Positions 6,143 through 61,147 of a DNA stretch of 64,000 bases are shown here, piece by piece; the first letter of the stretch is position 1; each line of letters opens with the position of its first letter. The position numbers and the translations under genes were made by a program. The notes under the pieces are model-generated. The model did no database searches, had not been told where the DNA came from, and was given only the letters and a program-made list of their open reading frames with translations. The DNA comes from Primulina eburnea (lineage: Eukaryota > Streptophyta > Magnoliopsida > Lamiales > Gesneriaceae), in assembly GCF_022965805.1 (NCBI RefSeq), contig NW_027330835.1, positions 169,248 to 233,247 of the forward strand. Direction: 5' to 3'.

Positions 6143-6175
6143 CGCGGGTGCGGTACTGTAAGGAGCGCGGGTGCG
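6143..6175 (-). promoter_or_regulatory. CGC-N4-GCG dyad pair 1 of the gypsy-D LTR
   Basis: Two CGCGGGTGCG palindromes start at 6143 and 6166, 23 bp apart, just upstream (minus strand) of the TATA box. Further pairs of the same LTR lie beyond the gypsy-A and copia-2 insertions. Confidence 0.65.
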
Positions 6176-7907
6176 CCAAGCTTTCGGCAGAAATATAATT
6201 TTCCAAAACAGTCGATGTGGGGACCCGGACGCTAATCATCTTCTTATTAATCATCTTTGGGATTTAATTATCAGTTCTGATAAAACAGGGTCTAAAAATT
6301 TTTCTTTTTAAAAGAAAGTGCGAAAGGTAATGGCATCTATATAATATACATATCTGTATAAAAACTACAGTTCAGTAAAAAAAAATACAATACTGTACAA
6401 CCTAAGTCTAAGGTTCAATTACTAAATTCAAGTAATAACCCAAGTCTGCTACAAGTCCGGAATCACCACGCTAACTCGTCTTCTCTTATCGTCATCTCGA
6501 CCCTGATCCAGCCCCACCTGTTGTCATGCACACATACAAAACAAGACAACAGCCGGATAACTCCGGTGAGAATAATCCAAGTATAAAACATGGTAAGCAT
6601 GTATATAAACAAACTAATTCATAAACATGCGATCCGGTGTATATTTCATAATCGATGAAATAAATCAAATAAGCATGTAACTCAAATCAGATAAACATGC
6701 ATATAAACGATCTAAATCATAAAAACATGCTAGCACAACTGAAAGCAATAACGATGGGTCCCATGATCTAGGAGCCACATCCATATAAGCATGAAGTCCT
6801 AATCAAATCATGTCTAGACTTGACTCGATCTATAACTCTAGGGATCCCGGGGTGAATAAGACGATCTATCACCTACTCTCCAATCGGGGTGACGGTACGT
6901 CTTATTCCTAGACTTCGGCCTGATCTGTATCCGCATCTACAATAAGGGAGGTGATCTTCCCCTATGCTGTGATATCGCCGAACGTCTAGAAGTCTGGATG
7001 ATCTCGCAGACTTTCCTATCTTAATGCATGAATACACAATCTGTAAACAAGCATAATCATCTTAATGCAATGCAACATGATATATAAACAAAGCATAATT
7101 AAATAAAACATAAACAAGAATATAGTATGTGATTTATTGGGCAACTCAAGGATGATCTCGATTGAGTTGTTTCTTCCCGAATATCACATGAATTATACCT
7201 TTGTCGTCCCCGTCTGAGGAAGACGATGATCTGTATTCAACTCTGTCCATCTCAATCTGAAAAGACAATATCGAATACGCTGCATCAGTGAATAACTCAA
7301 TACACAATCTGTTCTGATCACTACACAAATCAGTATACAATCTGATCAATATCTGAATAAGATACAATCTAACTCATGTCATTGACACATAACAATACAA
7401 TCTGAATAATTACGGAGTCTGATCAATCTAAATCAATACTGAATCTGATCAATCTAAATCAATACTGAATCTGAATACGCCGTCAATCTGAACATCACAT
7501 ATATATAATACCAGAACTCATAATCTGAATATCGGTATATTCAAAATCAGTAATACACAATTCTGATATCAAAATCTCAATCAATATCTATCACCATTCA
7601 TATCAATCATAAAAATAGTCTATTCTGAAATCTGACTTCAATCCTATAATGTCTACGGTAGCAGAAACATCATATCTGAAACACATGCAATTCTGACAAT
7701 ATCATAAACTCAAATCTTGTTTAAACGTAACAAAACTTACGTCCAATTGTAGCCTGCGTTGATAGGAACACAGTACCGAAGTCGGATTTCAATTTGGATA
7801 AACGGTTTCTTTGTAAATTGAATTCTAACCTCAAGAATATAAAATCTCTCCCCTAAACTCTCGACTTTCAGGTTGAAAGAATGGAGGAGAATCAAGGGTT
7901 ACACACG

Positions 7908-7919
7908 TATATATATATT
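7908..7919 (-). promoter_or_regulatory. TATA box of the gypsy-A 3' LTR
   Basis: The alternating TA stretch lies about 50 bp downstream (minus strand) of the dyad cluster. The other LTR has the same element at 43379-43390 with a small internal change. Confidence 0.55.
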
Positions 7920-7968
7920 GCATGCATAATGGATACGTGTCTTTCTCAAGATATGCCACAAAACCTCT

Positions 7969-8173
7969 CGCGCATATGCGCGACATAACCCGCGCATATG
8001 CGCGAGACCTACTGGTCTCGGCAAACAGTACCCGCGCATATGCGCCACGCTTCTCGCGCATATGCGCCAAGGCTTCTGGAGGTGTCGCGCATATGCGCGC
8101 ATGTCTTCGCGCATGTGCGCCAACCTTACTGTGATTCTCGCGCATGTGCGCCACTCTTGATCGCGCATGTGCG
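7969..8173 (-). promoter_or_regulatory. CGC-N4-GCG dyad cluster, core ATAT/ATGT, four pairs
   Basis: Eight CGCGCATATGCG or CGCGCATGTGCG motifs start at 7969/7991, 8033/8055, 8086/8108 and 8139/8162. Within-pair offsets are 22, 22, 22 and 23 bp; pairs repeat every 53-64 bp. The cluster sits immediately upstream of the LTR TATA box. Confidence 0.75.
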
Positions 8174-8346
8174 CCAACACATAAATTTGCACACATAATT
8201 TACACCTTTCTTATGTGTTCTGGCTCCGATCCGTTCCGTCTATATTTATCTCTATTACTTCAATAATCATTCCAGATTAATTATCAATTACGGTAATCAT
8301 ACTCAATTCATTTCAGATTACGGTAATTAAATTCTCGGGCATTACA

Positions 8347-10967: not shown

Positions 10968-12584
10968 TGTGACACCCTGACCCGATACAATTAAAAATAC
11001 AGCGGAATTTAAAATTTTCTTTAAAATATGGAAGGAGTTTCAAAATACATTTCATAAAAATGTTTACAAAACAAATACATGATCATTCAAATGATATACA
11101 AAATACAGAAGAATTATTCTTATGATCATGTCCCAAAATGATACAAAATAATCTTCCTTCCAACGGTGCATGCATATGACCCCTATCCACAGTCAACGTC
11201 CAGGGTCACCACTCTGATCTGCATCACATGAAATAACTGAAATGAGAATAAATCTCAGCAAGTGGAACTCTAACATAGCAATGATACATAGTATACTCTG
11301 TAAATCATGACTTTGAAATCATAAATACCATCAACTCTGAAACATGAATACTGTAGCAATAACTGTAGCAATAGCATATCAATAGGATAACAATACGATG
11401 GTATTTCTCTTTTCTCTGGTTGGATTGATATCAATAGTATCTATGACTGTGGGTGCAAATATCCCATCGATATAAATCGATAACTGTGAGGGATATAAGC
11501 CTATAGGCGTTGATCAACTAATTGCATGCAATGCTCTGACTATGATAAATCAATCCAATAAAACATTTGAACTCTGAATAGCATTTAAAGCCGTCGTTTC
11601 ACAATCTCATAATATCTCTTGTATTCCCTTTTTAACAATAGTGAGACATACAATGCCTCCAATAGATAATCAATGAAATCAATACATAACAATGGATCAA
11701 TGGAAGGGAATAACACTTTGAAACCTTTAAAACACAATACATATATCATCATGTGAGCAAAGGGATGAAATTCCACTTACAAACCAATAGAACACCTCCA
11801 AACTAACTCTTGGTACACCACCTACAACAATAATCCATAAACAACACCAATATCAACTCTATATCCACAAGTACAAGTCAAATAATCCATTAATCAACTC
11901 AAACAACAAGCCCAAGTCAACCCTTAACTCAAAACCTTAATAGAATCGCACCAAAAACTTACCTAAGCTTCCTTATACCACGTAGAACGTCGATCTCTAG
12001 TCGAAAATCCAAACAAAGCCAAGAATCAAAGGTAGGAAGCAATTGAAAATGGAGAAAACCCTTGCCCTAGAGAGGAAATCTCGAAAAGAAGATAAGAGAT
12101 AAGGTATGGAATGGCCAACAACTCCCAAAAAGCAACTAAATATCTCGCCCATACTTACACCGCGGGTGCGGTCACACAAGCACCGCGGGTGCGCTAAGCT
12201 CACGGCAATCCAACAAAATTCCATGCACGAACACCGCGGGTGCGGTGCTACAATTACCGCGGGTGCGGTGCACACCGCGGGGGCGGTCCTTGCACTGCCG
12301 CGGGTGCGGTCATGCCACGGCCTTCCAAAACCAAAATGATGAATAGTACACCGCGGGGGCACTCCTCTAAGAGCGCGGGTGCACTCTTGCTACGGCAATG
12401 AACAGTAATAAGGCCACAAAAATAGATCCGAAACGCTGAAACGAACAATCAACACCAACTAATACCTCAATAAAACAATAACCAATAATACTATGGCCCA
12501 AAACACAACTCTAAACATCTAATCATAAAACCCAAATAACAAGTAAAGCTTAAACCGTACCGTACACCGGGCTCGGCTATTACA
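10968..12584 (-). repeat. 3' LTR of the chromovirus
   Basis: The LTR is 1617 bp, TGTGACACCC to CGGCTATTACA on the plus strand. It contains four dyad pairs at 12160-12384. The 121- and 77-codon frames at 11997-12362 and 12106-12339 are translations of these GC-rich repeats and occur identically in the other LTR. Confidence 0.95.
12160..12384 (-). promoter_or_regulatory. CGC-N4-GCG dyad cluster, core GGGT/GGGG, four pairs (3' LTR copy)
   Basis: CCGCGGGTGCGG-type motifs start at 12160/12183, 12234/12257, 12275/12298 and 12351/12373. Offsets are 23, 23, 23 and 22 bp. On the minus strand an AT-rich GATATTTAG follows just downstream of the cluster. The last pair has decayed ends (GCAC instead of GCGG). 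Confidence 0.72.
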
Positions 12585-12585
12585 A

Positions 12586-12600
12586 TCTCCCCTCCTTAGA
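12586..12600 (-). other. Polypurine tract of the chromovirus
   Basis: A purine run (TCTAAGGAGGGGAGA on the minus strand) abuts the 3' LTR. It is the expected primer for plus-strand synthesis. Confidence 0.8.
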
Positions 12601-12624
12601 GGAATTTCGTCCGCGAAATTGACG

Positions 12625-13029
12625 TCACTGCACGAACAACTCAGGATACTTCTCTCTCATCTCTTCCTCTGGTTCCCACGTAGCCTCCTCTATCAAATGG
12701 TTCCTCCAAAGGACTTTAACGATGCCGATCTCTTTGTTCCTTAGAACCCTAACTGTGCGATCCAAAATCTGGACCGGAATCTCTTGGTACGTCAAACTCG
12801 GCGTCAAGTCCAATGGCTCGTGGTGAAGAACATGGGAAGGATCTGCAATATACTTCCTGAGCATTGATACGTGAAACACATTATGGACTCTGTCAAGATC
12901 GGGCGGTAGGGCTAATCTGTAGGCTCGGTCACCAACTCTGTCCAAGATCTCAAAAGGGCCAATAAACCTCGGACTCAGCTTGCCCTTCTTGCCAAATCTC
13001 ATCACACCCTTGAGAGGTGCTATCTTCAA
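12625..13029 (-). CDS. Integrase C-terminus with chromodomain-like tail, separated by a 1-bp deletion
   Basis: This 134-codon frame continues the polyprotein after a frameshift. It begins [19 protein letters not shown], the integrase GPF/Y-type segment (FIGPFEIL), and ends with a chromodomain-like sequence rich in the VLWRNH...[10 protein letters not shown] pattern found in plant chromoviruses, which in that family directs integration to particular chromatin. The upstream frame stops at TTT TGA; restoring one T in the run at about 13027-13031 would join the two. The methionine given as a start is internal and unlikely to be used. Confidence 0.92.
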
Positions 13030-16000
13030 AATACATAATCGCCAACCTCGAACTGCAAAGGTCTGCGGCGAACATCTGCATAACTCTTCTGTCTGGACTG
13101 AGCAGTCTTCATCCTCTCTCTGATCACTGCAACAACATCGGCCGTCTGCTGGACCAACTCTGGTCCCAACATCTTCCTCTCACCAACCTCATCCCAAAAC
13201 AAAGGCGATCTGCACTTCCTGCCATAAAGTGCCTCATACGGTGCCATCCCAATCGACGCCTGGTAGCTATTGTTGTACGTGAACTCCACAAGTGGCAATT
13301 TAGAATCCCAACTACCAGAATAGTCAATAGTACAAGCTCTGAGCATATCCTCAAGAATCTGAATGACTCTCTCTGACTGACCGTCGCTCTGAGGATGATA
13401 AGCTGTACTGAAAGCTAACCGCGAACCCATAGCTCTGTGCAGACTCTTCCAAAACTCGGAGGTAAACCTGGGGTCACGATCAGACACGATCGACACAGGA
13501 ACCCCATGAAGTCTAACAATCTCTGCAATGTAGTCCTCGGCGTACTGATTCATGGAGTACGTCGTCTTGACTGGGAGAAAGTGCGCTGACTTGGTCAATC
13601 GATCAACGATGACCCAAATGGAATTATAACCTCTCTGAACTCTGGGAAGACCAGTCACGAAATCCATAGTGATATGCTCCCACTTCCACTGAGGAATCGG
13701 CAAAGATAGCAATGTCCCAGCAGGTCTCTGATGCTCAATCTTCACCTGCTGACAAGTAAGGCACTGAGAAATGAACAAAGCAACATCTTTCTTCATACCT
13801 GGCCACCAATAGAGTCGACGAAGATCCTGATACATCTTCGTACTGCCTGGATGAATCGAATATGGCGCGGTATGAGCCTCTGTCAAGACGTCTCTACGAA
13901 TATCGTCGCCAATAGGAACACAAATACGACCTCTGAAAGTCACCAAACCATCACCATTTGAACCAAACTCTGAGTTCCCTCTCTCCTCTGCTCTAGCTCT
14001 CAACTCTGTCAACTGAACATCAGTCGACTGCTCTCTACGGATCCTGTCCGTCAAAGTAGATCGAATGACTAACGCTGAAAGACGAGCAATGGTACCTGGA
14101 ATCACCAGATCTATCTCCTCTCGATGCAAATCCATCAACAATGGCCTCTGAATCAAAGAACTCAATGAAGTACTCGACTTGCGACTCAACGCATCTGCCA
14201 CAACGTTCGCCTTCCCTGGGTGGTAACTGATAGTCACATCATAATCCTTGACAAGCTCTAACCACCTCCTCTGCCGCATGTTGAGCTCTTTCTGAGAAAA
14301 CAGATACTTCAAACTCTTGTGGTCTGTGAAAATCTCACACTTTTCGCCATACAGATAATGTCTCCAAATCTTCAGGGCGAAAACCACAGCTGCTAGCTCT
14401 AAATCATGCGTCGGATAATTCTTCTCGTAATCCTTCAACTGGCGAGAAGCATAGGCAATAACCTTACCTCGCTGCATCAGAACTGCACCAAGGCCTCTCT
14501 TCGACGCATCGGTATAGACAACGAAATCCTCAGAACCACTAGGCAATGAAAGAACAGGAGCTGTCGTCAATCTATCCTTCAGCTCTTGGAATGCACTCTG
14601 GCAATCGATGGACCACTCGAACTTCACAGTCTTCCTCGTCAGATTGGACAATGGCAGGGCAATCTTGGAAAAATCTGAAATGAAACGACGATAATAACCC
14701 GCCAAACCAAGGAAACTGCGTACCTCTGAAACAGAAGTAGGAATAGGCCAATTCTGAATCGCCTCTATCTTCAATGGATCAACAGCAATGCCATCTCTCG
14801 AAACGACATGGCCTAGAAAAGAAATCTGATCCAGCCAAAACTCACACTTCTTCAACTTGGCAAACAACCTCTTCTCTCGCAACAACTGAAGCACAACTCT
14901 GAGATGCTCTGCATGAAGCTCTCTGGTCTTGGAATAGATAAGAATATCGTCGATGAAAACAATGACGAAGCTATCCAAGAACGGCTTGAACACACGGTTC
15001 ATCAGATCCATAAAGACCGAAGGGGCATTGGTCAAACCAAACGACATCACAAGAAACTCAAAATGACCATACCTGGTCCTGAAAGCCGTCTTAGGGACAT
15101 CAGACTCCCTAACCTTCAACTGATAGTAGCCAGACCGAAGATCAATCTTCGAAAACACAGTGGCACCATGGAGCTGATCAAACAAATCATCTATCCGTGG
15201 CAACGGATACTTGTTCTTGACAGTCACTTTGTTGAGCTCCCTGTAGTCGATACACAGCCGCAAGGAACCATCTTTCTTCTTAACGAAAAGAACTGGAGCT
15301 CCCCAAGGCGAAGAACTCGGACGAATGAAACCCTTATCTAGAAGATCCTGCAACTGCGCCTTCAACTCCTTCATCTCAGTAGGGGCCATTCGGTACGGAG
15401 CCTTAGAGATAGGAACCGTACCTGGAGCTAAATCGATCACGAATTCAACATCTCTGTCCGGTGGCAAACCCGGAACATCATCCTCAAACACATCAGCAAA
15501 CTCCCTCACAACATCGATATCATCAATATTCAACTTAACCAGTCTATCAACATCCACAATAGAAGCAAGAAACCCATCGCAACCTCTACACAGCAATCTC
15601 TCAGCCTCAAGACAAGAAATAAAAGGAAGGACCAGCGAAGTACCTGAGCTGGCGAGAACTCCTCCCTGGCCATCATCTGCAAAAGTCACCTTCTTAGCAA
15701 CACAATCGATAACTGCACGGTAAGTCGAAAGCCAATCCATGCCAAGAATAACATCGAAGGCAACCATAGGGATAACAATCAAATCAGCGAAAACAACTCG
15801 CTCCTCAATACGAACAGGGCACGCAAACACAATCGATGTCGGGCACAATACATCTCCCGAAGGCAAAACAACACTAAGCTGAATGGGAAGAATAGAAGGA
15901 ACTATACCCAAAGATCTCAAAAACAAATCAGACATAAAAGAATGAGTAGCACCAGTATCAATCAAAGTAGTAGCTACTCTGCCTGAAATCAAAATAGTAC

Positions 16001-17051
16001 TAGAGATCAATGAAGAATCATGATTAATACCTTCCTTGGTCATCGAAAAGATACGACCCTGCACTCTCCCTTGGCTAGCTCCCTTAGGACAATTTCTGGC
16101 AACGTGGCCTGCCGTGCCACAACGATAGCAAGACTGAGTGCCAAATCTGCACTCTCCACGGTGATGCTTGCCACACTTCTGACACAAAGGCTTCTCGGGA
16201 TCAAATGGAACAACTGGAACTGGCGATGGTCTAGGACTCGGCTCCATCTTGCCCTTGCCCTTGAAACGATCCCTGCCCCTCTGATTAGAACCCTGGCCTC
16301 TCTGAGCAACAGCTTGATGCCTCTCCTGCCTCTCCCTGGCGATATCCTTCTCGTCCTGCTCGGCCAACAAAGCTTTGGACACGATCTCCTTGAAAGTAAC
16401 AGCCTTGGACATGTTGATATCACGGCGAATCTCCGCTCTAAGGCCTCGAATGAAATGAGCGCCTTTGTCCTTGTCGTTCGAAGCAATATACGGAGCAAAC
16501 AAGCAACCCTCCTCAAACTTCAGGATATACTGACCAACATCCAAGCTCCCCTGTCGAAGCTCCAAGAACTCCGTAACCTTCCTCGCTCGAAGTGCATCGG
16601 GGAAATACTTGTCGTAGAACAAGTCCGTGAACTCTGACCACTTCAGCGTCGCAACAGTCACACCAACCTTCGTCGCATTCCACCAAATGCGGGCAGCCTT
16701 AACCAACATGAAAATGGCACAACTAATCCTGTCTTTGTCCTCATACTGGAGATGATCGAAGATAGCTTCAAGCGCCTTGACCCACTCGACAGCAACTAGA
16801 GGATCGGTGCTACCTGCGAATTCCGGTGGATCCATCCTCTTGAAAGCAGAAAAGACGGCATCAGTGCCAACAGCCTGAGCAACCTGACCTCTCACTTGGC
16901 CTCTACCCTGTCCAGTTCCTTGCATACAAATGAGCTGCTGAATCTGCTCGCTATGCACCTTAGCCTGCTCCTTAAGCAACTTGCCGAACTCGTCGACAAC
17001 TCTCGAGGAAGAACTATCCTCACCCTCTGCCGCCTTACGCTTAGGAGGCAT
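13026..17051 (-). CDS. Chromovirus gag-pol polyprotein (gag, protease, RT, RNase H, integrase)
   Basis: The frame is 1341 codons from [10 protein letters not shown]. Gag domain at about residues 85-240; two CCHC-type knuckles at about 285-325 ([26 protein letters not shown]); aspartic protease with DTGATHSF, catalytic Asp at about 365; reverse transcriptase with FIDD at about 696-699; RNase H with YTDAS, DLELAA and FTDHKSL; integrase HHCC finger ending CLTCQQVK, then the core with Asp near 1129 (TMDFVTG), Asp near 1191 (VSDRDPRF) and Glu near 1228 (GQSERVIQ). All catalytic residues are present. The start is the first ATG after the primer-binding site, 117 bp downstream of it. The frame ends early at a TGA made by a 1-bp deletion; the remaining 134 codons are in the next frame. 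Confidence 0.96.
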
Positions 17052-17167
17052 ACTCTACAATTGCTCACAAGACACCAATCAATATATATAACAATGGATA
17101 GATGCAAGAAAACATACCTGGACAGTTGAAAGTAGACGAAGTCATATGCATTGGTCCGAAGAACACC

Positions 17168-17179
17168 GCTCTGATACCA
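17168..17179 (-). other. Primer-binding site of the chromovirus
   Basis: TGGTATCAGAGC on the minus strand, five bases inside the 5' LTR, is complementary to the 3' end of initiator methionine tRNA. Confidence 0.9.
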
Positions 17180-17184
17180 CTAAA

Positions 17185-18800
17185 TGTGACACCCTGACCC
17201 GATACAATTAAAAATACAGCGGAATTTAAAATTTTCTTTAAAATATGGAAGGAGTTTCAAAATACATTTCATAAAAATGTTTACAAAACAAATACATGAT
17301 CATTCAAATGATATACAAAATACAGAAGAATCATTCTTATGATCATGTCCCAAAATGATACAAAATAATCTTCCTTCCAACGGTGCATGCATATGACCCC
17401 TATCCACAGTCAACGTCCAGGGTCACCACTCTGATCTGCATCACATGAAATAACTGAAATGAGAATAAATCTCAGCAAGTGGAACTCTAACATAGCAATG
17501 ATACATAGTATACTCTGTAAATCATGACTTTGAAATCTTAAATACCATCAACTCTGAAACATGAATACTGTAGCAATAACTGTAGCAATAGCATATCAAT
17601 AGGATAACAATACGATGGTATTTCTCTTTTCTCTGGTTGGATTGATATCAATAGTATCTATGACTGTGGGTGCAAATATCCCATCGATATAAATCGATAA
17701 CTGTGAGGGATATAAGCCTATAGGCGTTGATCAACTAATTGCATGCAATGCTCTGACTATGATAAATCAATCCAATAAACATTTGAACTCTGAATAGCAT
17801 TTAAAGCCGTCGTTTCACAATCTCATAATATCTCTTGTATTCCCTTTTTAACAATAGTGAGACATACAATGCCTCCAATAGATAATCAATGAAATCAATA
17901 CATAACAATGGATCAATGGAAGGGAATAACACTTTGAAACCTTTAAAACACAATACATATATCATCATGTGAGCAAAGGGATGAAATTCCACTTACAAAC
18001 CAATAGAACACCTCCAAACTAACTCTTGGTACACCACCTACAACAATAATCCATAAACAACACCAATATCAACTCTATATCCACAAGTACAAGTCAAATA
18101 ATCCATTAATCAACTCAAACAACAAGCCCAAGTCAACCCTTAACTCAAAACCTTAATAGAATCGCACCAAAAACTTACCTAAGCTTCCTTATACCACGTA
18201 GAACGTCGATCTCTAGTCGAAAATCCAAACAAAGCCAAGAATCAAAGGTAGGAAGCAATTGAAAATGGAGAAAACCCTTGCCCTAGAGAGGAAATCTCGA
18301 AAAGAAGATAAGAGATAAGGTATGGAATGGCCAACAACTCCCAAAAAGCAACTAAATATCTCGCCCATACTTACACCGCGGGTGCGGTCACACAAGCACC
18401 GCGGGTGCGCTAAGCTCACGGCAATCCAACAAAATTCCATGCACGAACACCGCGGGTGCGGTGCTACAATTACCGCGGGTGCGGTGCACACCGCGGGGGC
18501 GGTCCTTGCACTGCCGCGGGTGCGGTCATGCCACGGCCTTCCAAAACCAAAATGATGAATAGTACACCGCGGGGGCACTCCTCTAAGAGCGCGGGTGCAC
18601 TCTTGCTACGGCAATGAACAGTAATAAGGCCACAAAAATAGATCCGAAACGCTGAAACGAACAATCAACACCAACTAATACCTCAATAAAACAATAACCA
18701 ATAATACTATGGCCCAAAACACAACTCTAAACATCTAATCATAAAACCCAAATAACAAGTAAAGATTAAACCGTACCGTACACCGGGCTCGGCTATTACA
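17185..18800 (-). repeat. 5' LTR of the chromovirus
   Basis: The LTR is 1616 bp and nearly identical to 10968-12584. Differences I see are at about 17325 (C for T), 17544 (T for A), 17775 (one A fewer) and 18764 (A for C). Confidence 0.95.
18376..18600 (-). promoter_or_regulatory. CGC-N4-GCG dyad cluster, core GGGT/GGGG (5' LTR copy)
   Basis: It has the same four pairs and spacings as at 12160-12384. This copy lies in the transcribing 5' LTR, upstream of gag-pol. Confidence 0.72.
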
Positions 18801-20861: not shown

Positions 20862-20996
20862 TGTAATGCCCGATAATTTAATTATTGTAATCTGATATGA
20901 TTTACTGATTATGAATTGATGTAATTATAGGCGGGCCAGTTCGAGATAAGATTTGAGCAAGTATATGAAATTATACAATTTGGGCCGAAGGTATAG

Positions 20997-21158
20997 CGCC
21001 CGGGCGAAAATGTTTGTCCGCCCGAGCGCCATTGAGTGTTGGTAGAAAGCCGAGAGTCCTTCGCCCGGGCGGAACTTTTTGTTCGCCCGAGCGCGCATGA
21101 ATAATGGATGAGGGCCGAGAGTTCTTCGCCCGACCGGCAACTTTTGTCCGCTCGAGCG
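20997..21158 (+). promoter_or_regulatory. CGC-N4-GCG dyad cluster, core CCGG/CCGA/TCGA, three pairs (5' LTR)
   Basis: Motifs start at 20997/21019, 21062/21084 and 21127/21149, each pair 22 bp apart; the two halves of a pair are near inverted repeats. The motif at 21127 is CGCCCGACCG here but CGCCCGAGCG in the 3' LTR, so it decayed after insertion. Confidence 0.75.
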
Positions 21159-21207
21159 AGCGACGTGCAACACCAAGATATATGCCACGTTTCAGATGTG
21201 CATGCGG

Positions 21208-21217
21208 TATATATATG
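21208..21217 (+). promoter_or_regulatory. TATA box of the gypsy-B 5' LTR
   Basis: TATATATATG lies about 50 bp downstream of the dyad cluster. The 3' LTR has one more TA here. Confidence 0.6.
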
Positions 21218-22942
21218 TTTAAGCATGAAATTCTTCATATTTCAGCCGAGGGAAACGAGAAAAGCTTAAGGAGAAAGCTTTAAGTTTCTTCGAAGACTAT
21301 TATTGTGATTTTGTGTAATCTGTCTGTCTGATTTTAAATCCGACTACAGTACTGTGTTCCTCTCGACACGAGCTACACAAGGACGTAAGTTTTGTTACGT
21401 TTAGACAAGATTTGAATTTATGATATTGTCAGAATTGAATATGATTCAGATATAGTGTTTCTGCTACCGTAGATATTGTAGAATTGAAGTCAGATTAAAG
21501 AACAGACCGTTTCTGTAATTGTTATGATTTTTGAAAAATATTGACTGAGATTCTATATCAGAATTGTGTTAATATTCAGAGTATGAATTATGTTGACACA
21601 GATTATGAGTGCCAGTATTATATATGTGATGTTCAGATTGACGGGGTTATTCAGATTGTATTATTATGCCGTCGAAACATCAGTTGAATTAGATTGATCA
21701 GATTCAGATATGATTTCGATTTGATTGTGATATTATTGATAAAACTCAGATTGTATCTTGTTCAGATATTGATCAGATTGTATACTGAATTGGGTATTGA
21801 TCAGAACGCATTGTGTATTGAGTTAGTCACTGACACAGTGTATTCGATATTGTCATTTCAGATTTGATATGGACAGAGTTGAATACCAGACTTCGTCTTC
21901 GTCAGACAGGGACGACAAAGGTATAATTCATGTGATATTCGGGAAGCATAACTCAAATTAGATTAATTTGAGTTTCCCAATAAAATCACATACTAGATTA
22001 TTGTTTATATTGTTACCTGATTATGCTTTGATTATAGAATTGTATTCAAGCAGGTAAGATAATTTAGATATTCAGTTATGAATATGATTATGCTTTGTTT
22101 ACAGATTCTTATTCATTGCATCTAAGATAGGAGAGTCTTTGACAGGCATTGTCAAATAGCTAGACGTTTCGGTGTATCTCAGCATAGGAGTAGGTATTAC
22201 TCTTATTGCCGCCGTTGATACAGCTCAGACCGAAGTCTAGGAATGAGACGTACATTACCCCGATTGGAGGGTAGGTAGTGACGTCTTATTCACCCCGGGA
22301 TCCCTAGAGTTTTAGTCGAGTCAAGTCTAGACATGATTTGATTAGGACTGCATGATTATATGGATGTGGCTCCTAGATCATGGGACCCATCGTTATTACT
22401 TTCAGTTGTGCTAGCATGTTTTATGATTTAGATTGTTTATATGCATGTTTATCTGAATTGAGTTGCATGCTTATTTGATTTATTTCATAGATTATGAAAT
22501 ATATTGTGTTTATACATGATCGCATGGTTTATGAACTAGTTTGTTTATATACATGCTTACCATGTTTTATACTGGGATTTATTCTCACCGGAGTTATCCG
22601 GCTGTTGTCTTGTTTTGTAAGTGTGCATGACAACAGGTGGGGCTAGATCAGGGTCGAGATGACGATGAGAGAAGACGAATTAGCGTGGTGATTCCGGACT
22701 TGTAGCAGACTTGGTTTATTACTTGAATTTAGTACTTGAACCTTAGACTTAGGTTGTACAGTATTGTACTTTTCTACTGAACTGTAGTTTTTATACAGAG
22801 ATGTATATTGTTTAGATTCCATTACCTTCCGCAGTTACATTTTAAAAAAAGAAAATTTTTTTGACCCTGTTTTATCTTAATTGATAATTAAATCCCAAAG
22901 ATGATTAATAAGATAGATCAGCGTCCGGGTCCCCACAACAGG

Positions 22943-30909: not shown

Positions 30910-31444
30910 ACTTTGTTTCTTGGGGATGATAGAAATAATATCCAACTTAATTCCTTGGATATTCCACAAAGTAACATAAAATGGATCGACTATCCAATTT
31001 ATCTCCCACTACCTGCTTCATAAGCAGGGCACCCCATATTCTAAGATAAGAATACTTAGGAGGCTTACCCATCCATATCTCATATGGTGTATGCCTTTGA
31101 ATGGACATTTAATGGAATATCTTTCAATTTTAAGTTATAGAGATCGTTTTCAAGTTCTCAAGTACCAATTAAACATTCATTCTTGTAAATGTAGCAAACA
31201 CCTTTGCAAAATAGACAAGAATATCCATTTTTATCACAATAGAAATGGAAACAATGTTTTTCACCAAAAAGGTACAAACAAAACATCTCTTTAAAATTAA
31301 CTTAAAACTATTGTTCAACAATAAGTAAACATCTATTAAGGTCTTGGCAGCAACTCTTGCTCCATTGCCTATCCTCTAGAAGGTCACACCTTCCTTAAGC
31401 TTTCTACTTCTTCCCATCACCTGTAACTTATTACAGAGATGTGA
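30910..31444 (-). pseudogene. Copia-mid integrase linker, deletion junction and protease remnant
   Basis: After the gypsy-B TSD copy (30910-30914) the integrase C-terminal linker continues to about 31085. It then joins the segment that should lie before the integrase finger, at an AATGTCCA sequence (about 31107-31114). Everything between, the zinc finger and catalytic core, is absent, as at 56688 in copia-2. The remaining part matches copia-1 protease downstream of DTG, with frameshifts. Confidence 0.85.
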
Positions 31445-43817: not shown

Positions 43818-43881
43818 GTCGACCGCGGGTGCGGTCAAGTAAACACCGCGGGTGCGGTCTCAGCACCGCGGGTGCGGTCTC
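43818..43881 (-). repeat. Gypsy-D LTR, middle segment with dyads
   Basis: It begins with the right TSD of gypsy-A (GTCGA) and ends with the left TSD of copia-2 (GTCTC, 43877-43881). It holds a CCGCGGGTGCGG pair at 43823/43846 (23 bp) and a third motif at 43866 whose partner lies beyond copia-2 at 60965. Confidence 0.82.
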
Positions 43882-45775: not shown

Positions 45776-46384
45776 TGTGGGAACCCGGACGCTAATCATC
45801 TTCTTAATCATGATTGGGACTAATTAATCAAGTATAATAAACAGGGTCTAAATTTAAATTTTTTTTTTTAAAATGCGGAAGGTAATGGAATCAAGCTCCT
45901 ATACATATCAGTATAAAAGTGTAAATCTGATAAAATATACAATCATACATACTCAGGTTCAACAACTACTATCAAGTGTTTAAACCCTAGCTCTAGTCCA
46001 AGTCCGGTATCACCACTCTAATCTCGATCTGTCCTCATCTCTGTGACCCAGTACCTGTCCCACCTGTTGCCATGCACACATATAGACAAGACAACAGCCG
46101 GATAACTCCGGTGAGAATAAATCCCAGTATAAACAATGTAAACATGCAATCATATAAAAACATATATAAAAGCATATAAGCAATAATCATAACATGTATC
46201 AAATCAGAACATGAAGCAATATCAAGAATAACTCTTATTCTAAACATGTACCATCATCAGGAACATAATCAACATCAAATAATATAAATCAATATCAAGC
46301 AATGAATCACACTCAGACTCAAACTCAACTCAAACAACGCGTCGTTTCAGACTCGACTCAACTCTAACCTAGGGATCCCGATGT

Positions 46385-46640
46385 CTGGACGAAACAGCCA
46401 TAGAATTGACGACTCAGTCAAGATTTAAGCGAATCAGCCAATAGCTAGGCGAAACAGCCGATAGCTAGACGAATCAGTCATAGATAGAAGAATCAGTCAA
46501 TATATAGACGAATCAGTCAGTATATAGACGAATCAGTCAATAAATAAGCGAATCAGCCAATAGCTAGGCGAAACAGCCGATAGCTAGACGAATCAGTCGG
46601 TGACTAGGCAACTCAGCCAATGACTAAACAATTCAGCAGT
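46385..46640 (-). repeat. Minisatellite in the gypsy-C 3' LTR
   Basis: Units of about 19-21 bp share AGACGAATCAGTCA followed by ATA-rich spacer. The other LTR has a similar array at about 51925-52180 with slightly different units. Confidence 0.7.
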
Positions 46641-47342
46641 CAATACATGCAGTTGCTATAAATCAATAGACTACAAACATCAATCTCAACAATTACAAAT
46701 ATCAATGTAATAACTAAGTATGTGATTTAGGGAGACTCGAGTCAAACCTTACTCGAGTTGTGCAATCCCAACACAACATTAATTTATACCTTTCATTCTG
46801 ATACTCTGACTCTGTCGAAGTCTCGAACCTCAAGCCTGTCAATAACTCAATCTGACAATACCATATCGAGGGTACAATATCAATACACCAACCAAACAAT
46901 ACTGGATATAATCAGAATTCTACCAAATTCTGTTTCAACAACATAACGTCATAATTTCAATATATCCAGTACTACCATATCAGTCAGATATGAATCCCAA
47001 CATCTCATAATAACAACTCAATTTTGATATCATATCAACTCCGAAAATCATAACAATTCCATACGGTATCTATTCTTCAGTCCGGTTTCGATTATACGAT
47101 GTCTAACATGTCAAGAACATCATATATGAATCCTATTCAATTCTGACAATAGCATAATTTCAAAGCATGTCAAAACGTAGCAAAACTTACGTCCAGTTGT
47201 AGCCTACGTCGATAAGAACTCAATACCGAAATCGGATTAAAAATCGAACGGACGGATTTCTCACAAAAGGCGTAAGGATTTTCTTTCCCAAAGCGTCGAC
47301 CCTTCTTCGGATTTCTTCTCTGAATTCTAAATGAATTCGTGC

Positions 47343-47345
<3 letters not shown>

Positions 47346-47397
<52 letters not shown>
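47346..47397. repeat. (TA)26 microsatellite at the TATA-box position
   Basis: 52 bp of perfect TA repeat where the 5' LTR copy has 21 bp of interrupted TA (52895-52915). The LTRs were identical at insertion, so one copy changed length afterwards. YIYIYI-rich frames here are artefacts. Confidence 0.9.
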
Positions 47398-47401
<4 letters not shown>

Positions 47402-47451
47402 CCCGCACATGCAAGAGGACGAGTGGCTCAACTCGGTTATTCCACGTCTCG

Positions 47452-47667
47452 CGCTCGAGCGGTAAGAAAGTACCGCTCGGGCGCGAGCTCGGCGCTCGGG
47501 CGGTGAAAATCTGCCGCCCGGGCGCGAGGCTCTCTGACCAGAACATATCCTATCTTCCATTGGCGCTCGAGCGGTAATATTCTACTGCTCGGGCGCCACC
47601 TCTCCTGCCCGAGACTCTTCTTGGTTGAACATTGGCGCTCGGGCGGTCAAAAGCTACTGCTCGGGCG
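47452..47667 (-). promoter_or_regulatory. CGC-N4-GCG dyad cluster, core TCGG/TCGA, four hairpin-like pairs
   Basis: Motifs start at 47452/47474, 47493/47515, 47564/47586 and 47636/47658, every pair exactly 22 bp apart. Flanks extend the pairs into 35-bp inverted repeats. Two motifs start TGC where the other LTR has CGC, consistent with C-to-T decay. Confidence 0.76.
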
Positions 47668-47822
47668 CCACTAATTCTGTCCAATTTTTGTATAATTCGT
47701 ATACTTGGCCCCGTTCGGTCTCAGCATAATGCATCTATACTCATATCAGTTTATTATCAATAAATCATCTCAGATTACGTTAATCATTTCAGATTACGCT
47801 AATCAAATTCTTGGGCATTACA

Positions 47823-49085
47823 TTTCTCCCCCCCTTAAGATACGATTTCGTCCTCGAAATCACAGGCCATCAATCATATCAGTAAGAAGGTATATAACAG
47901 AAACTGAAGAGAAAACTCACATCAGTTAAATAACTCGGGGAAATCTCGGTCTCATGTCTGACTCTGTTTCCCAAGTATCTTCTTCGATGCCCTGACGACT
48001 CCACTGAATCCTCATAGTGGAATAGTCCTCGTTCTGAGTGGCTTACTCTTTCCGATCAAGAATCTAAATCGGTTTCTCAACATAACCCAATGTATCATCC
48101 AATTCAGTCTCGCCTGGCTAAATAACACGTGAAGCATCAGAAAGATATTTTCTCAAGAATAACCATGAAAAACACCATGTATTCCAGCTAATGAAGACGG
48201 TAACGCGAGTCGATGGGCACGATCTCCTATCTTCTCCAGAATCTCGTACGGCCCAATATAACGTGGAGACCGTTTCCCTTTCTTACCAAATCTGGCAATT
48301 CTTCTGAAAGGTAAAATTTTCAAAAATACTCGATCTCCAGCCTCAAATACCAACGATCATCGTCAGACATTGGCATATCTGGCTTGTCTATCTTGGGCTG
48401 CCTTCATTCTTTCCTGAATCAGCTTCACATTTTTCAGTCATATCCCTGATCATGTCAGGTCCGATCTCAGGAACCTCAGAGATATCATTCTACTAAAGAG
48501 GGAATCGACACCTCTTTCCGTACAACACTTCGAAAGAAGTCATTTCAATACTCAGCTAATAACTTCTGTGGTACAAAACTCACAAAGTGGCAATGCATCT
48601 TGCCAGCTAGTGCCAATATCAAGCACTACTGCTCTCAGCATATCCTCCAATGTCTGGATCGTCTGCTCAGACTATCCATCGGTCTATGGATGATATGCGT
48701 TACTAAGATGTAATTTCGTACCTAGTGCTTACTGCAAACTCTGTCCAAAGTGCGATATAGACCGAGAATCATGGTCTAAAACAATCGACTTTGGTACTCT
48801 ATGCAGTCTATTCACCTTTCTGACATAATTCTCAGCCATCTAGTCATGTCTGTACGTCATCTTGTACTGAATAAAGCATGCAAATTTGGTCAATCTGTCA
48901 ATCACAACCCAAATTGCGTCACAATATCGGGAGGATCTCAGTAATTTCCTTACAAAATTCATGGAAATGTGATCTCATTTCCTTTCAGGAATAGTCAAAC
49001 TCTGTAATAGTCCTCCGGATTTCTTTCTCTCAGCCTTCACCTGTTGGCAATTTAGACATTTGGCTACAAGTTCATCAATATCAGC
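47823..49085 (-). pseudogene. Gypsy-C polypurine tract and degenerate integrase
   Basis: The polypurine tract (read as TTTCTCCCCCCC on plus) abuts the LTR. An integrase C-terminal piece is clear at 48153-48353 (GDRVFLKILPFRR, GKRSPRYIGPYEIL). Upstream to about 49085 the core and the finger end (ADIDELVAKCLNCQQVK near 49030-49080) can be read across stops. Many stops correspond to CTG-to-CTA changes on the plus strand. Confidence 0.78.
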
Positions 49086-51031: not shown

Positions 51032-51300
51032 ATCTGAAACTCAAAAGGATTAGTGACCCAATCCAACACATCTGTTTCAATTCAATCTCCCTCCCGATCA
51101 TCTTACTGCTGATCGAGAATCAATTCAGATTTGTTCCCAATAATACAGATTACAAATCAAATCAGATAAATCAGGTAACATGTATTATATAAAGCAGTAC
51201 AACATGCTAGCATTCAAAAAAAGGAAAGAATACCTCAATCTACCCCGCTCACTAGCCTCTTCTATCTCAATCTCAAGAATCTACAGTTCTAGTACCTACA

Positions 51301-51312
51301 GCTCTGATACCA
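51301..51312 (-). other. Primer-binding site of gypsy-C
   Basis: TGGTATCAGAGC on the minus strand lies five bases inside the 5' LTR. Confidence 0.88.
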
Positions 51313-51317
51313 CCTGT

Positions 51318-53340
51318 TGTGGGGACCCGGACGCTAATCATCTTTTTAATCATGATTGGGACTAATTAATCAAGTATAATAAACAGGGTCTAAATTTAAA
51401 TTTTTTTTTTTTTAAAATGCGGAAGGTAATGGAATCAAGCTCCTATACATATCAGTATAAAAGTGTAAATCTGATAAAATATACAATCATACATACTCAG
51501 GTTCAACAACTACTATCAAGTGTTTAAACCCTAGCTCTAGTCCAAGTCCGGTATCACCACTCTAATCTCGATCTGTCCTCATCTCTGTGACCCTGTACCT
51601 GTCCCACCTGTTGCCATGCACACATACAGACAAGACAACAGCCGGATAACTCCGGTGAGAATAAATCCCAGTATAAACAATGTAAACATGCAATCATATA
51701 AAAACATATGTAAAAGCAAATAAGCAATAATCATAACATGTATCAAATCAGAACATGAAGCAATATCAAGAATAACTCTTATTCTAAACATGTACCATCA
51801 TCAGGAACATAATCAACATCAAATAATATAAATCAATATCAAGCAATGAATCACACTCAGACTCAAACTCAACTCAAACAACGCGTCGTTTCAGACTCGA
51901 CTCAACTCTAACCTAGGGATCCCGATGTCTGGACGAAACAGCCACAGAATTGACGACTCAGTCAAGATTTAAGCGAATCAGCCAATAGCTAGGCGAAACA
52001 GCCGATAGCTAGACGAATCAGTCAATAGATAGACGAATCAGTCAATATATAGACGAATCAGTCAGTATATAGACGAATCAGTCAATAAATAAGCGAATCA
52101 GCCAATAGCTAGGCGAAACAGCCGATAGCTAGACGAATCAGTCGGTGACTAGGCAACTCAGCCAATGACTAAACAATTCAGCAGTCAATACATGCAGTTG
52201 CTATAAATCAATAGACTACAAACATCAATCTCAACAATTACAAATATCAATGTAATAACTAAGTATGTGATTTAGGGAGACTCGAGTCAAACCTTACTCG
52301 AGTTGTGCAATCCCAACACAACATTAATTTATACCTTTCTTTCTGATACTCTGACTCTGTCGAAGTCTCGAACCTCAAGCCTGTCAATAACTCAATCTGA
52401 CAATACCATATCGAGGGTACAATATCAATACACCAACCAAACAATACTGGATATAATCAGAATTCTACCAAATTCGGTTTCAACAACATAACGTCATAAT
52501 TTCAATATATCCAGTACTACCATATCAGTCAGATATGAATCCCAACATCTCATAATCAATAACAACTCAATTTTGATATCATATCAACTCCGAAAATCAT
52601 AACAATTCCATACGGTATCTATTCTTCAGTCCGGTTTCGATTATACGATGTCTAACATGTCAAGAACATCATATATGAATCCTATTCAATTCTGACAATA
52701 GCATAATTTCAAAGCATGTCAAAACGTAGCAAAACTTACGTCCAGTTGTAGCCTACGTCGATAGGAACTCAATACCGAAATCGGATTCAAAATCGAACGG
52801 ACGGATTTCTCACAAAAGGCGTATGGATTTTCTTTCCCAAAGCCTCGACCCTTCTTCGGATTTCTTCTCTGAATTCTAAATGAATTCGTGCATGTATATA
52901 TATATAATATATATACATCCTCGCACATGCAAGAGGACGAGTGGCTCCACTCGGTTATTCCACGTCTCGCGCTCGAGCGGTAAGAAAGTACCGCTCGAGC
53001 GCGAGCTCGGCGCTCGGGCGGTGAAAATCTGCCGCCCAGGCGCGAGGCTCTCTGACCAGAACATATCCTATCTTCCATTGGCGCTCGAGCGGTAATATTC
53101 TACCGCTCGGGCGCCACCTCTCCTGCCCGAGACTCTTCTTGGTTAAACATTGGCGCTCGGGCGGTCAAAAGCTACCGCTCGGGCGCCACTAATTCTGTCC
53201 AATTTTTGTATAATTCGTATACTTGGCCCTGTTCGGTCTCAGCATAATGCATCTATACTCATATCAGTTTATTATCAATAAATCATCTCAGATTACGTTA
53301 ATCATTTCAGATTACGCTAATCAAATTCTTGGGCATTACA
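51318..53340 (-). repeat. 5' LTR of gypsy-C
   Basis: The 2023-bp LTR runs TGTGGGGACCC to GGGCATTACA. It has a short TA stretch at 52895-52915 and the dyad cluster at 52970-53185. Confidence 0.92.
52970..53185 (-). promoter_or_regulatory. CGC-N4-GCG dyad cluster of the gypsy-C 5' LTR
   Basis: It has the same four pairs as the 3' LTR. The last two pairs keep CGCTCGGGCG where the 3' LTR copy has TGCTCGGGCG. Confidence 0.75.
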
Positions 53341-53611
53341 TTGGTGGTGGGCCTAATTTGAAGGAAAGATTCAAGGAGGAGGAAGCTTGTAGATTGCCAT
53401 TCCTTTCAAGAGCTAAGGTGTTTACACCTTAGTTGGAGCCATAAAATCAATCTTTGTGATTGATAGGTAATTTCTCAACACCCTATGCTTGAAAGTTGAG
53501 ATTTTTGTATATGCTATACTAGTACACAAGGTGGCCGAATTTTTCATGTAAAAATTCGAAATATTTTGAGCTTCCGTTGTGCATTTCGGTCACCTAAATC
53601 GATCCCTTTCA
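53341..53611 (+). repeat. 5' LTR of copia-2, right part
   Basis: It resumes after gypsy-C (TTGGT duplicated) and ends GATCCCTTTCA at 53611, followed by AG and the primer-binding site. Confidence 0.92.
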
Positions 53612-53613
53612 AG

Positions 53614-53625
53614 TGGTATCAGAGC
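53614..53625 (+). other. Primer-binding site of copia-2
   Basis: TGGTATCAGAGC starts two bases inside the LTR and is complementary to initiator methionine tRNA. Confidence 0.92.
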
Positions 53626-58665: not shown

Positions 58666-58679
58666 TGCAAGTGGGAGAT

Positions 58680-60953
58680 TGTTAGAGTAGGTGCCCGTCG
58701 AGCCAAGTGTTGGCCGAGTGTTCACAATGAAACTCTATGTATAAGCAATCTTTATTTTAATAATATTTGAAATTATTACTTTGGCACATCTTTATCTGTA
58801 TACCCATGCTAGTTGCATAGATAAAGCCCTTGAATATACAAATAGTAGAAAGAATATGATATGCTCATATGATGAGTATCATGAAACTCATATTTGTAAT
58901 ACTGTATATTCTAAACGGTTCCTAGTCGATTCAGCCGCCACTAAGAAGGATATAGGCCGCTAGAGTTAGAGACTAGTATCTGCGATGTGAGTACCATGTT
59001 TCATTGGTAAGGGACACTGTGATGTCCGAACATTCAGATAGGTGCTCCTTGTACAGTGCACTGAACAACCCTCCATAAAAAGACTTTCCAAGTGGTTCTC
59101 ACTTATCGAGTGGAAATGTCCTAGTTTATGGTTGTACAGAATTAGTCCTTATGACCCGGGACAACATTGAGAATCTATGTGCTAGAATTACCCTTTTACC
59201 ATTGGTTACCGACTCTCAGTGGGGTCATTAGGGTTGCAAAGGTGTGTTTGGTGCTTCCTGTTGCCGAACACGACCCTAGCGAGTCGATAGTCTTGCAATT
59301 GTATCAGTCAGTGGCTATTCATCACCCGCCTATACCTTCTCGTGTATGGGATATGCCTTAGGTGTGTATAATAATGTGTAATGATAGGCTCCGGAAATCT
59401 TCTGGGCCAGAGTTAAGTGGTGGGTAATTTATGAAAGGGTTTCATAGAATTACACCATCGAATGCAAACTACGACATGAACACAATAGTAGATCTGATTC
59501 ATTGACAAACCTCGAATAAAACCAATGGTTGTCCGGAAATCGATGCAGGATATAAGTGAGTTGAAGGGACCGGTATCTATAAACAGCTACTAACCATAAT
59601 AGCATATGGTTCTTGCAGAGGCCACTAATCAATCTATAACCTTAGGGAAAAAAAAAAAAAAACTCAATGTAAGCGATGCTGCTATGGTGGTTTAACATGA
59701 TTGGTTTGCACCAATGTATTATCAGGAACTGTGGTGTTCTGACGTTCTTATTATCAAGGTGTTGATAAATAAGAATGGAGCAATTGGGGTATGCTCATAT
59801 AAGGACATGTTAAGTCCGAATCACATAGAGATGTGAACCCACGGCTAGTTGTATCAATGAACCATCGAGTGCCACACAAGTACTAGCTTTCTAGATCCCG
59901 TTGAGAAGTAAAAATAGTTCAATGTGTTGAACGGCTTATAAAGGAGTTTATAAGCGTAAAGAAAATTAGAAGTATGACTTCTATAAAGGAGAAAATATTT
60001 CAATGTGTTGAACGACTTATAAATGAGTTTATAAGTGTAAAGAAAAATGGAAGTATGACTTCTATTAGAGAAATGTAAATTTTAATTTATGGAAGTGTTC
60101 CTAAATTAAAATTTGGCCAAGTGAATAATGTATTTGAAAATTGTGATTTTAATAAACATTATTATGGACTAAATTAAATTAATTCAAGTGTTGAATTAAT
60201 TTAACACTAATGGGTCTAGTAGAGTCCAAATAATTAAATTAATTCAAGTGTTGGATTAATTAAATCATATTGGGTCTTGTAGAGCCCAATAATAAAATAA
60301 TTATTAAACCAGTGGGCTTGAGTAAAATCAAGTAATTAGTAAATGGTCTCAAATGGGTTTGAGACATTTAAATAAAGTCCATGGGCTTTGTAAATGTTAC
60401 AAGCCCACTTACATTGCATGCTTGGGAGGTGGAGGGTTCGAGAATACTTTTGAATAAAAAATTGCATGGCATGCAACTTTTTCACTTTTGCTTTTTGCAA
60501 CACCAAGACATAAAAAATTAATTCATTCTCCTCTCTCCCTCCAAGTGAGATGGCCGAAACTTCCCATTGTTCTCTCCTCCATATTTTCTTCATTTTTGTT
60601 CTTCAATTTGTTGAGGAACATCACACTTCTCAAAGATAAATCCTTTTATTTTTCTAGGGCAAAATAAAAGGGGATCTACCTAGTTGGTGGTGGGCCTAAT
60701 TTGAAGGAAAGATTCAAGGAGGAGGAAGCTTGTAGATTGCCATTCCTTTCAAGAGCTAAGGTGTTTACACCTTAGTTGGAGCCATAAAATCAATCTTTGT
60801 GATTGATAGGTAATTTCTCAACACCCTATGCTTGAAAGTTGAGATTTTCGTATATGCTACACTAGTACACAAGGTGGCCGAACTTTTCATGTAAAAATCG
60901 AAATATTTTGAGCTTCCGTTGTGCATTTCGGTCACCTAAATCGATCCCTTTCA
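58680..60953 (+). repeat. 3' LTR of copia-2, with an indel-rich patch
   Basis: At 2274 bp this LTR is about 114 bp longer than the 5' LTR. Nearly all the extra length lies in about 59180-59740, where small insertions occur every few bases, including a run of 15 A or more near 59648. The rest is almost identical to the 5' LTR. No gene is seen. Confidence 0.9.
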
Positions 60954-61147
60954 GTCTCATTCTACCGCAGGTGCGGTGTGGCTACGGGAATTTTACTAAC
61001 TTGCTGCCCATTGCACCGCGGGTACGGTGCTTGCCAGACCGCGGGAGCGGTCTTGCACGGCTAACATTTCATATTTTATCGCATCATTTCGCCCCGTCTG
61101 TTCTTGCGTTTCGTATTCAACTATCTACAAGAATCTCAGGCATTACA
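60954..61147 (-). repeat. Gypsy-D LTR, right end
   Basis: It starts with the right TSD of copia-2 and ends CAGGCATTACA at 61147, the standard end of the gypsy LTRs here. It carries CGC-N4-GCG-type motifs at 60965 (partner of 43866) and a pair at 61016/61039 (23 bp). On the minus strand this is the first part of the LTR, and it is preceded by array DNA rather than a polypurine tract. Confidence 0.82.

Follow-up and report, generated by a model that had tools for sequence, protein, structure and literature searches.

To our knowledge, the switches that turn the long terminal repeats (LTRs) of plant gypsy retrotransposons on or off are mostly unknown. In the copia elements Tnt1 and Retrolyc1, repeated tandem enhancer boxes in U3 mark out the transcriptional subfamilies and are replaced more quickly than other parts of the element. 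The closest known system to the one reported here is that of the palindromic repeats of Sirevirus LTRs: the RM boxes of these Ty1/copia elements are short GC-rich dyads with a family-specific centre, which cluster in the LTR's upper half ahead of a conserved TATA box and form CpG islands (Bousios et al. 2010, PMC2829016). In maize, the available text of a further source links such palindromes to small RNAs and describes Ty3 elements as generally lacking a structure peak (PMC10760457). LTRs of the Del/Tekay gypsy lineage carry plastic 5' CpG islands in their most variable part (Cruz et al. 2014, PMC4029996), and VANDAL transposons have short repeated non-coding motifs whose family-specific letters change in step with VANC, a sequence-specific anti-silencing binder (PMC12844716). 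Here we analyse a stretch of 64,000 nucleotides from Primulina eburnea (contig NW_027330835.1; the window), a nest of LTR elements in which paired CGC-N4-GCG dyads lie in the U3 regions of gypsy elements A, B, C and D, of a solo LTR and of two D-like remnants, D2 and D3.

We found 72 exact CGC-N4-GCG sites in the window, compared with 1.73 expected and a maximum of 6 in 100 dinucleotide shuffles. Among 832 scanned combinations of 3-mer half-sites and spacers, this motif had the highest observed-to-expected ratio (72 versus 1.9) of all those with at least 15 hits; the shuffles and the scan both reject chance composition as its source. Forty-seven exact sites remain after masking the second LTR of each element and a satellite, and one exact site, at 57991, is isolated. 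A preliminary description of this DNA had reported a GC-rich cluster with family-specific N4 letters just upstream of the TATA box of each gypsy LTR. This holds in 9/9 delimited LTRs, where the arrays sit in U3 upstream of a TATA-like word; the arrays of A, B, C and the solo LTR end 50-57 bp before a TATA-like tract, and the TATA box of D is only TATTTA-like. CpG dinucleotides are at 1.15-1.54 times expectation in the arrays, as against 0.68-1.07 in the remaining LTR.

The sites come in pairs at a nearly constant offset. For the spacing analysis we used one LTR per element together with the solo LTR, D2 and D3, which gave seven arrays and 50 sites; in 4 sites one of the six fixed bases is mismatched. 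The pair offsets are 22, 22, 22 and 23 bp in A; 22, 22, 23, 23, 23 and 22 in the solo LTR; 22, 22 and 22 in B; 22, 22, 22 and 22 in C; 23, 23, 23 and 22 in D; 23 and 23 in D2; and 23 in D3. The pairs and offsets listed earlier were correct. Read consecutively, 24/24 pairs lie at 22 or 23 bp, leaving single sites at 43867 (D2) and 60966 (D3). Of all 43 successive distances, 24 are 22 or 23 bp, whereas 20,000 random placements within the same arrays gave a mean of 2.3 and a maximum of 10. Distances between pairs are variable (18-20, 30-31, 41-43 and 49-53 bp). Spacers inside pairs are 45-58% identical within families and 23-32% identical across families, against 26% by chance; the pair offset is kept while the N4 and spacer letters change, as had been proposed.

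The pair noted in the preliminary description stands, but it is part of a larger module whose third block had been missed. On the sense strand, a short block, CMGWR (CAGAA, CAGTA, CCGAA, CCGAG, CCGTG and others), lies upstream of the pairs in all three array types (A/solo, B/C and D). We used core polarity to orient the flanks of 48 arrays kept from 51 sources. Counted from the first CGC of each pair, the start of CMGWR falls at exactly -12 in 50/69 distinct A-type, 31/40 B/C-type and 23/42 D-type flanks; at -13 to -11 the counts are 50, 34 and 23, compared with maxima of 6, 5 and 5 in composition-shuffled flanks. Within the window, 16/21 pairs have the block at -12 (A-type 8/10, B/C-type 5/7, D-type 3/4). 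Scanning the gap between CMGWR and the dyad, we found 26 hits at N7 in the window, where no other gap between 0 and 25 exceeded 9, 92 versus at most 15 in 40 array loci, and 9 versus at most 3 in eighteen 10-kb stretches taken at set coordinates, with a secondary count at N14. The mean information content of the three types reaches 1.4-1.75 bits at the CGC and GCG letters; it is 0.5-1.0 bit from -12 to -8, 0.7-0.9 bit at the bases adjoining the dyads and low over most of the spacers; within N4 it is 0.1-0.67 bit at three positions and 1.05-1.09 at the second (mostly C). The shared position of CMGWR in three array types is a strong point of evidence. An E2F-like reading of TTGGCGC, judged by eye, fitted only some A flanks, was absent in D and was dropped.

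Read along the sense strand, the candidate module is CMGWR - 7 bp - CGC-N4-GCG - 12/13 bp - CGC-N4-GCG, 44-45 bp long; each U3 of these Tekay-type LTRs has several pairs, and most pairs fall within such a module. There are 23 full modules in the window; 22 lie inside delimited LTRs, where 22/22 face the direction of LTR transcription, and the 23rd is in D2, where its cores suggest its orientation. The sequence, spacing, polarity, position and genome-wide repetition of the module are direct observations.

The dyads themselves are oriented sites. In the five main arrays of the window, 25/42 sites have a non-palindromic N4, and 25/25 of these cores read ACAT, ACCT, CCGA, CTGG, ACCC or CCCC on the sense strand, with the reverse complement in 0, so that the earlier view of a simple palindrome does not stand. 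When 110 modules (a count that includes second LTR copies) were oriented by CMGWR alone, the cores at both positions were ACAT 26 times versus ATGT once, CCGA 41 versus TCGG 2, ACCC 40 versus GGGT 0 and ACCT 5 versus AGGT 0, leaving 3 reversed cores (1 ATGT, 2 TCGG). CMGWR orientation equals core polarity in 36/38 loci. Core polarity also predicts the side of a TATA-like word, for which the chance is 0.18 per 90 bp: in 25 arrays the word lies only on the predicted side in 13, only on the other side in 1, on both in 2 and on none in 7, and 2 arrays have no polarity. For CMGWR orientation in 39 loci, it is downstream only in 20, upstream only in 1, on both sides in 6 and on neither in 12. It is this agreement between core polarity and CMGWR orientation, and their prediction of the TATA-like side, that makes the dyads oriented. 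Exceptions are C-type pairs of the form TCGG ... CCGA among the matches listed and mixed cores in one C-type stretch (L039); outside the window, core polarity is strongly biased to one direction without being invariant. Pairs as plain inverted repeats hold for C-type flanks and fail for D, and N4 cores are mostly direct.

Nine LTRs were bounded through self-comparison, TGTAATGCCC / TGTAATAGCC starts, polypurine tract (PPT)-like tracts and TGGTATCAGAGC-type primer sites. These LTRs and the related features of the window are as follows.

6143-6215, minus strand: D2, left part; D-like U3 array with sites 6143 and 6166, module 6143-6187, broken by element A
6216-8346, minus strand: element A 3' LTR; array 7971-8173, modules 7971-8014, 8035-8078 and 8088-8131, PPT-like tract to the right of 8346
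7909-7918, minus strand: TATA-like tract of LTR A, 54 bp from the array
10968-12584, minus strand: element D 3' LTR; array 12161-12383 (last two sites with a mismatch), modules 12161-12205 and 12276-12320, TATTTA-like word 12137-12142
13026-17054, minus strand: element D gag-pol frame, 1342 aa, with gag, protease, reverse transcriptase (RT), RNase H and integrase
17185-18800, minus strand: element D 5' LTR; array 18377-18599, modules 18377-18421 and 18492-18536
20862-22939, plus strand: element B 5' LTR; array 20997-21158, modules 20985-21028 and 21050-21093
21208-21217, plus strand: TATA-like tract of LTR B, 50 bp from the array
28830-30911, plus strand: element B 3' LTR; array 28965-29126, modules 28953-28996, 29018-29061 and 29083-29126
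37750-39989, minus strand: solo A-like LTR; array 39494-39814, 12 sites forming 6 pairs, one site with a mismatch
41687-43817, minus strand: element A 5' LTR; array 43443-43645, modules 43443-43486, 43507-43550 and 43560-43603
43818-43876, minus strand: D2, right part; sites 43824, 43847 and 43867, continuing the left part via the GTCGA duplication
45774-47824, minus strand: element C 3' LTR; array 47452-47667 (two sites with a mismatch), module 47493-47536, (TA)26 at 47346-47397
51316-53342, minus strand: element C 5' LTR; array 52970-53185, modules 53011-53054 and 53154-53197
60966-61049, minus strand as suggested by core polarity: D3, a D-like remnant; sites 60966, 61017 (one mismatch) and 61040, offsets 51 and 23

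The window had been described as holding five gypsy LTR families; we find about three array types (A/solo, B/C and D), and the five are not independent. Because their LTR bodies are 60-85% identical (A, B and solo 80-85%; C 60-61% from each), A, B, C and the solo LTR are one LTR type. The sites at 6143/6166 and 43824-43867 are one split D-like array: element A inserted between two pairs in the U3 array of an older D-like LTR. Rejoined through the target-site duplication GTCGA (6211-6215 and 43818-43822), D2 has distances of 23, 51, 23 and 20, and element D has 23, 51, 23 and 18. The two LTRs of element A are 98.7% identical, and the element itself is broken by later insertions. In the U3 before the array, identity is 82% for A and solo, 60% and 66% for B with A and solo, 68% for B and C, 63% for A and C and 65% for solo and C; the B array is 62% identical to the C array and 44% to the A array. 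Element B thus looks mosaic, with what seems to be a C-type U3 at 20862-21160 and 28830-29126 joined to an A-type LTR body. Since the U3 and array of B are nearer to C and its body is nearer to A, the comparison suggests exchange of U3 modules between families or very fast replacement. Differences between 5' and 3' LTRs inside the arrays are 2/228 in A, 2/187 in B, 5/219 in C and 0/173 in D.

The same architecture recurs across the 812-Mb genome, for which all counts of repeats are lower bounds. CMGWR-N7-CGC-N4-GCG has 44,286 + 43,426 matches (about 87,700), compared with 651 + 609 for the reversed pattern, and CGCATATGCG-N12-CGC has 11,627 forward matches versus 3 reversed. With the gap left free at 0-30 bp (offsets 10-40), GCGC-N4-GCG ... 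CGC-N4-GCG matched 74,889 times forward and 5,747 times reversed, and the same free-gap search with the D-type core ACCC gave 21,639 forward versus 5 reversed. The matches listed are those reported first for contig C1, related copies among them. Among 50 listed plus-strand matches to the GCGC pattern, the offset was 22 in 37 and 23 in 5 (together 42/50), 31 in 4, and 12, 20, 21 and 29 once each. Among 96 unique places listed for ACCC, it was 23 in 70, 22 in 4, 24 in 7, 15-20 in 12, 31 in 2 and 40 in 1. With the offset left free, 22/23 bp is thus seen in 42/50 and 74/96 of the matches listed. In the eighteen stretches at set coordinates there were 30 sites, 24 of them in one stretch with D-type arrays (L032) and in L039 with its C-type array, and 22/23 bp was again prominent. 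The A-, C- and D-type loci that we fetched were chosen from motif listings and are motif-biased, the A set having been chosen with a 22-bp pair. Further core classes in the genome listing include GGCC, GGTC, GGGG, GACC and TGCC. A D-like variant with inverted cores (ACCC ... GGGT; C1:9131917-9138510) accounts for 4/96 of the ACCC matches listed and keeps the 23-bp offset.

Two helical turns, placing both sites on one DNA face, had been suggested for the pair offset. The offset of 22-23 bp amounts to 2.1-2.2 turns, and phasing between pairs is clear only in A-type arrays; it fails for the window C array and is weak for C-type gaps. A-type gaps cluster at 22/23, 31 and 42/43 bp, with a positional peak at 10.6 bp and 15/20 arrays peaking within 10.2-11.0. 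For a same-face rule covering all arrays, a period scan with between-pair gaps collapsed by homology (n=11) gave p of about 0.013; the window C array contradicts this rule, and we retain it for the A type only.

Taken together, the earlier observation is real and its interpretation is partly supported: a family-specific binder, or escape from a repressor, finds no support in this analysis. We think that the arrays are probably composite U3 enhancer modules, which a putative multi-subunit protein complex would bind to act on the LTR promoter. One protein dimer would occupy each CGC...GCG dyad; two dimers about two turns apart would bind together; CMGWR would be contacted by another domain or a partner protein; and the complex would drive or gate transcription from the TATA box, as an upstream enhancer. 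Several features point to a multi-subunit complex on double-stranded DNA: lengths hold while letters vary, the sites are oriented, a further block lies at a set distance, the arrays of A, B, C and the solo LTR are TATA-proximal, and A-type arrays show 10.6-bp phasing. Protein binding, the make-up of subunits and an effect of the module on transcription are what we infer from the arrangement of the DNA.

Several observations weigh against this reading. Because the copies of a family are related by descent, the large genome counts are not independent, and the real sample is about three array types. CMGWR was defined after the flanks had been seen, and its counts therefore describe a fit and do not test a prior guess. 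The block is missing at -12 from 5/21 window pairs (the distal A, one solo, two C and one D), and D pairs that directly follow another pair have it in 0/8 cases, as against 23/34 for other D pairs. As for phasing, the A-type statistic from gaps alone is broad (R about 0.7, 10 to 10.7 bp), 14/67 A-type offsets in the 35-65 range among the matches listed are 48-51, the window C array peaks at 10.2 bp and does not fit the phasing rule, and C-type offsets are 42-44 or 49-50 in 70/91 places among the matches listed, a poor fit. A further point comes from a scan of bacterial and archaeal genome contigs for RT relatives, which returned 13 loci (L001-L013) of plant-like gypsy fragments on small contigs, evidently contamination. 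One of these, L003, has an RT 77% identical to that of element D and five CGCAAGTGCG sites (CGC-AAGT-GCG) at 708-792, which precede a TATGTATATTAG word that is TATA-like by eye (a TATATA/TATAAA scan found none there) and then a TGGTATCAGAGC primer site at 1235. It looks like the U3 of another gypsy element, with the dyad and a new core. Its offsets, however, are 19, 18, 19 and 19 bp, so that 22-23 bp is not universal. An exact CMGWR-N7-CGC-N4-GCG match was found in 0/13 of these contaminant loci, and the cluster scan found CGC-N4-GCG clusters in 0/12 of the others; a primer-site search, made in 7/13 to see which loci extend into a U3, was positive in L003, L004 and L005.

RNA hairpins and plain tandem duplication fit less well as explanations. 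In the former, a pair would form a stem-loop in U3 at the 3' end of the RNA, serving 3'-end processing, packaging or dimerisation, or would be a target of small-RNA machinery. Predicted minimum-energy folds do join both motifs in 19/21 pairs, which also counts against the enhancer module, and several A and C pairs fold strongly (z -5.6, -8.2 and -7.1); C-type pairs are inverted repeats in their flanks too, some elsewhere having inverted TCGG ... CCGA cores, and small RNAs are drawn to clusters of Sirevirus palindromes (Bousios et al. 2016 as cited in PMC10760457). Yet fold strength does not follow the sense strand, which is better in 5 of 21 pairs, with antisense better in 11 and both equal in 5; when the folds of 8 pairs were compared with those of shuffled sequences, one B and one D pair did not stand out (z -0.6 and -1.0); the N4 cores of A and D are direct, not inverted, the partner core being ACCC in 85/96 and GGGT in 4/96 of the matches listed; and neither a CMGWR fixed at -12 nor 10.6-bp phasing of A arrays is expected of loops. 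We regard RNA hairpins as unlikely.

It is also improbable, in our judgement, that the arrays are a methylation platform, a CpG-dense island read by methyl-CpG binding or demethylation factors in host silencing or anti-silencing, with the spacing reflecting the reader. The CpG enrichment of the arrays fits this, as do the plastic CpG islands of Del/Tekay LTRs (PMC4029996) and the use of short family-specific repeats in VANC-type anti-silencing (PMC12844716), but CMGWR requires no CpG, and a reader of CpG density needs neither fixed offsets nor polarity. Least probable is that one ancestral unit was duplicated and spread as functionless tandem repeats with the offset as a relic, because, although the within-family spacer identity and the 41-, 53- and 65-bp units that Tandem Repeats Finder (TRF) reports in the window are as tandem duplication expects, a neutral relic should lose letters and lengths together, whereas the families differ in most letters outside CGC, GCG and CMGWR but keep the lengths, and between-pair distances have changed in the same arrays.

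The putative enhancer module admits a broader and more tentative version, which we offer as a possibility that is rather doubtful as a whole: a multi-subunit complex of a kind not described before, host- or element-encoded, might read CMGWR-N7-CGC-N4-GCG-N12/13-CGC-N4-GCG as a rigid ruler that Tekay families keep while diversifying N4, so that one geometry would control tens of thousands of LTR promoters within a single genome and U3 modules would be exchanged independently of the LTR body.

Element D has a gypsy pol with an integrase SH3 domain and a chromodomain, as in Del/Tekay chromoviruses, and we take it to be a Tekay/Del-like chromovirus. Its gag-pol frame matches RVP_2, RT, Integrase_H2C2 and a gypsy-type gag; after it, 12585-13026 encodes the SH3 domain and the chromodomain in a different frame (SH3_Tf2-1, E 6e-25; Chromo, E 1.8e-4 at 21.8 bits, below its cut-off of 25.1). 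Its LTRs end in CAGGGTGTCACA, with GGG at -8 to -10 as in the Del U5 attachment (att) type A (PMC4029996). The 99.8% identity of its two LTRs and its long gag-pol frame make a recent insertion probable. The LTRs of element A end in CGGGTCCCCACA, with GGG shifted by one; element C retains gag and integrase remains 30% and 42% identical to D and an SH3-like piece seen by eye; and elements A, B and C have no intact pol. The C LTRs also hold 20-bp tandem repeats (consensus CGAATCAGCCAATAGCTAGA) at 46408-46621 and 51952-52166, downstream of the promoter. Right after the D3 remnant begins a 364-bp satellite (61147-64000; 7.8 copies, 95% matches) with part of the gypsy integrase core as its repeat unit; as 364 is not a multiple of 3, its copies shift frame. 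RT relatives occur across many flowering plants; searches found none in viral contigs, none in phages and two distant RT matches in plasmids. Rfam at gathering threshold gave 0 families in the window.

A module found in the promoters of several families looks like a landing platform for a putative DNA-binding complex. Being rigid and common to diverging families, it offers a concrete DNA bait for the factor and a search pattern for other genomes, and its separation of letter turnover from geometry would make host-element conflict at LTR promoters testable. The enhancer boxes of Tnt1 and Retrolyc1 resemble it in being repeated U3 elements, but they belong to copia elements, use different motifs and are not known to include a dyad pair at a fixed offset. 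VANDAL motifs likewise are short and repeated with family-specific letters, but they belong to DNA transposons that encode their own binder (PMC12844716); none was identified in the window, where open reading frames of at least 250 aa were listed. The Del/Tekay CpG islands share the lineage, the LTR region, the CpG richness and the variability of our arrays, yet the available text of that study describes no motif, pair or spacing, contains "palindrom" 0 times and reports eudicot Del groups without a CpG island (PMC4029996). Among the titles listed in the literature searched, whose coverage leaves out most subscription papers, we found no published CGC-N4-GCG pairs in gypsy LTRs. With the Sirevirus RM boxes the window arrays share a repeated GC-rich dyad upstream of TATA in a CpG-rich part of the LTR. 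They differ in that the RM signature is CGG-CCG and the window core is CGC-N4-GCG, and in that RM boxes reside in Ty1/copia hosts whereas element D is gypsy; the accessible part of that report terms the RM motif Sirevirus-specific and describes neither a fixed pair offset nor a third block like CMGWR (PMC2829016). The arrays of Primulina carry the theme of Sirevirus palindromes over from copia to gypsy elements and show a more precise architecture.

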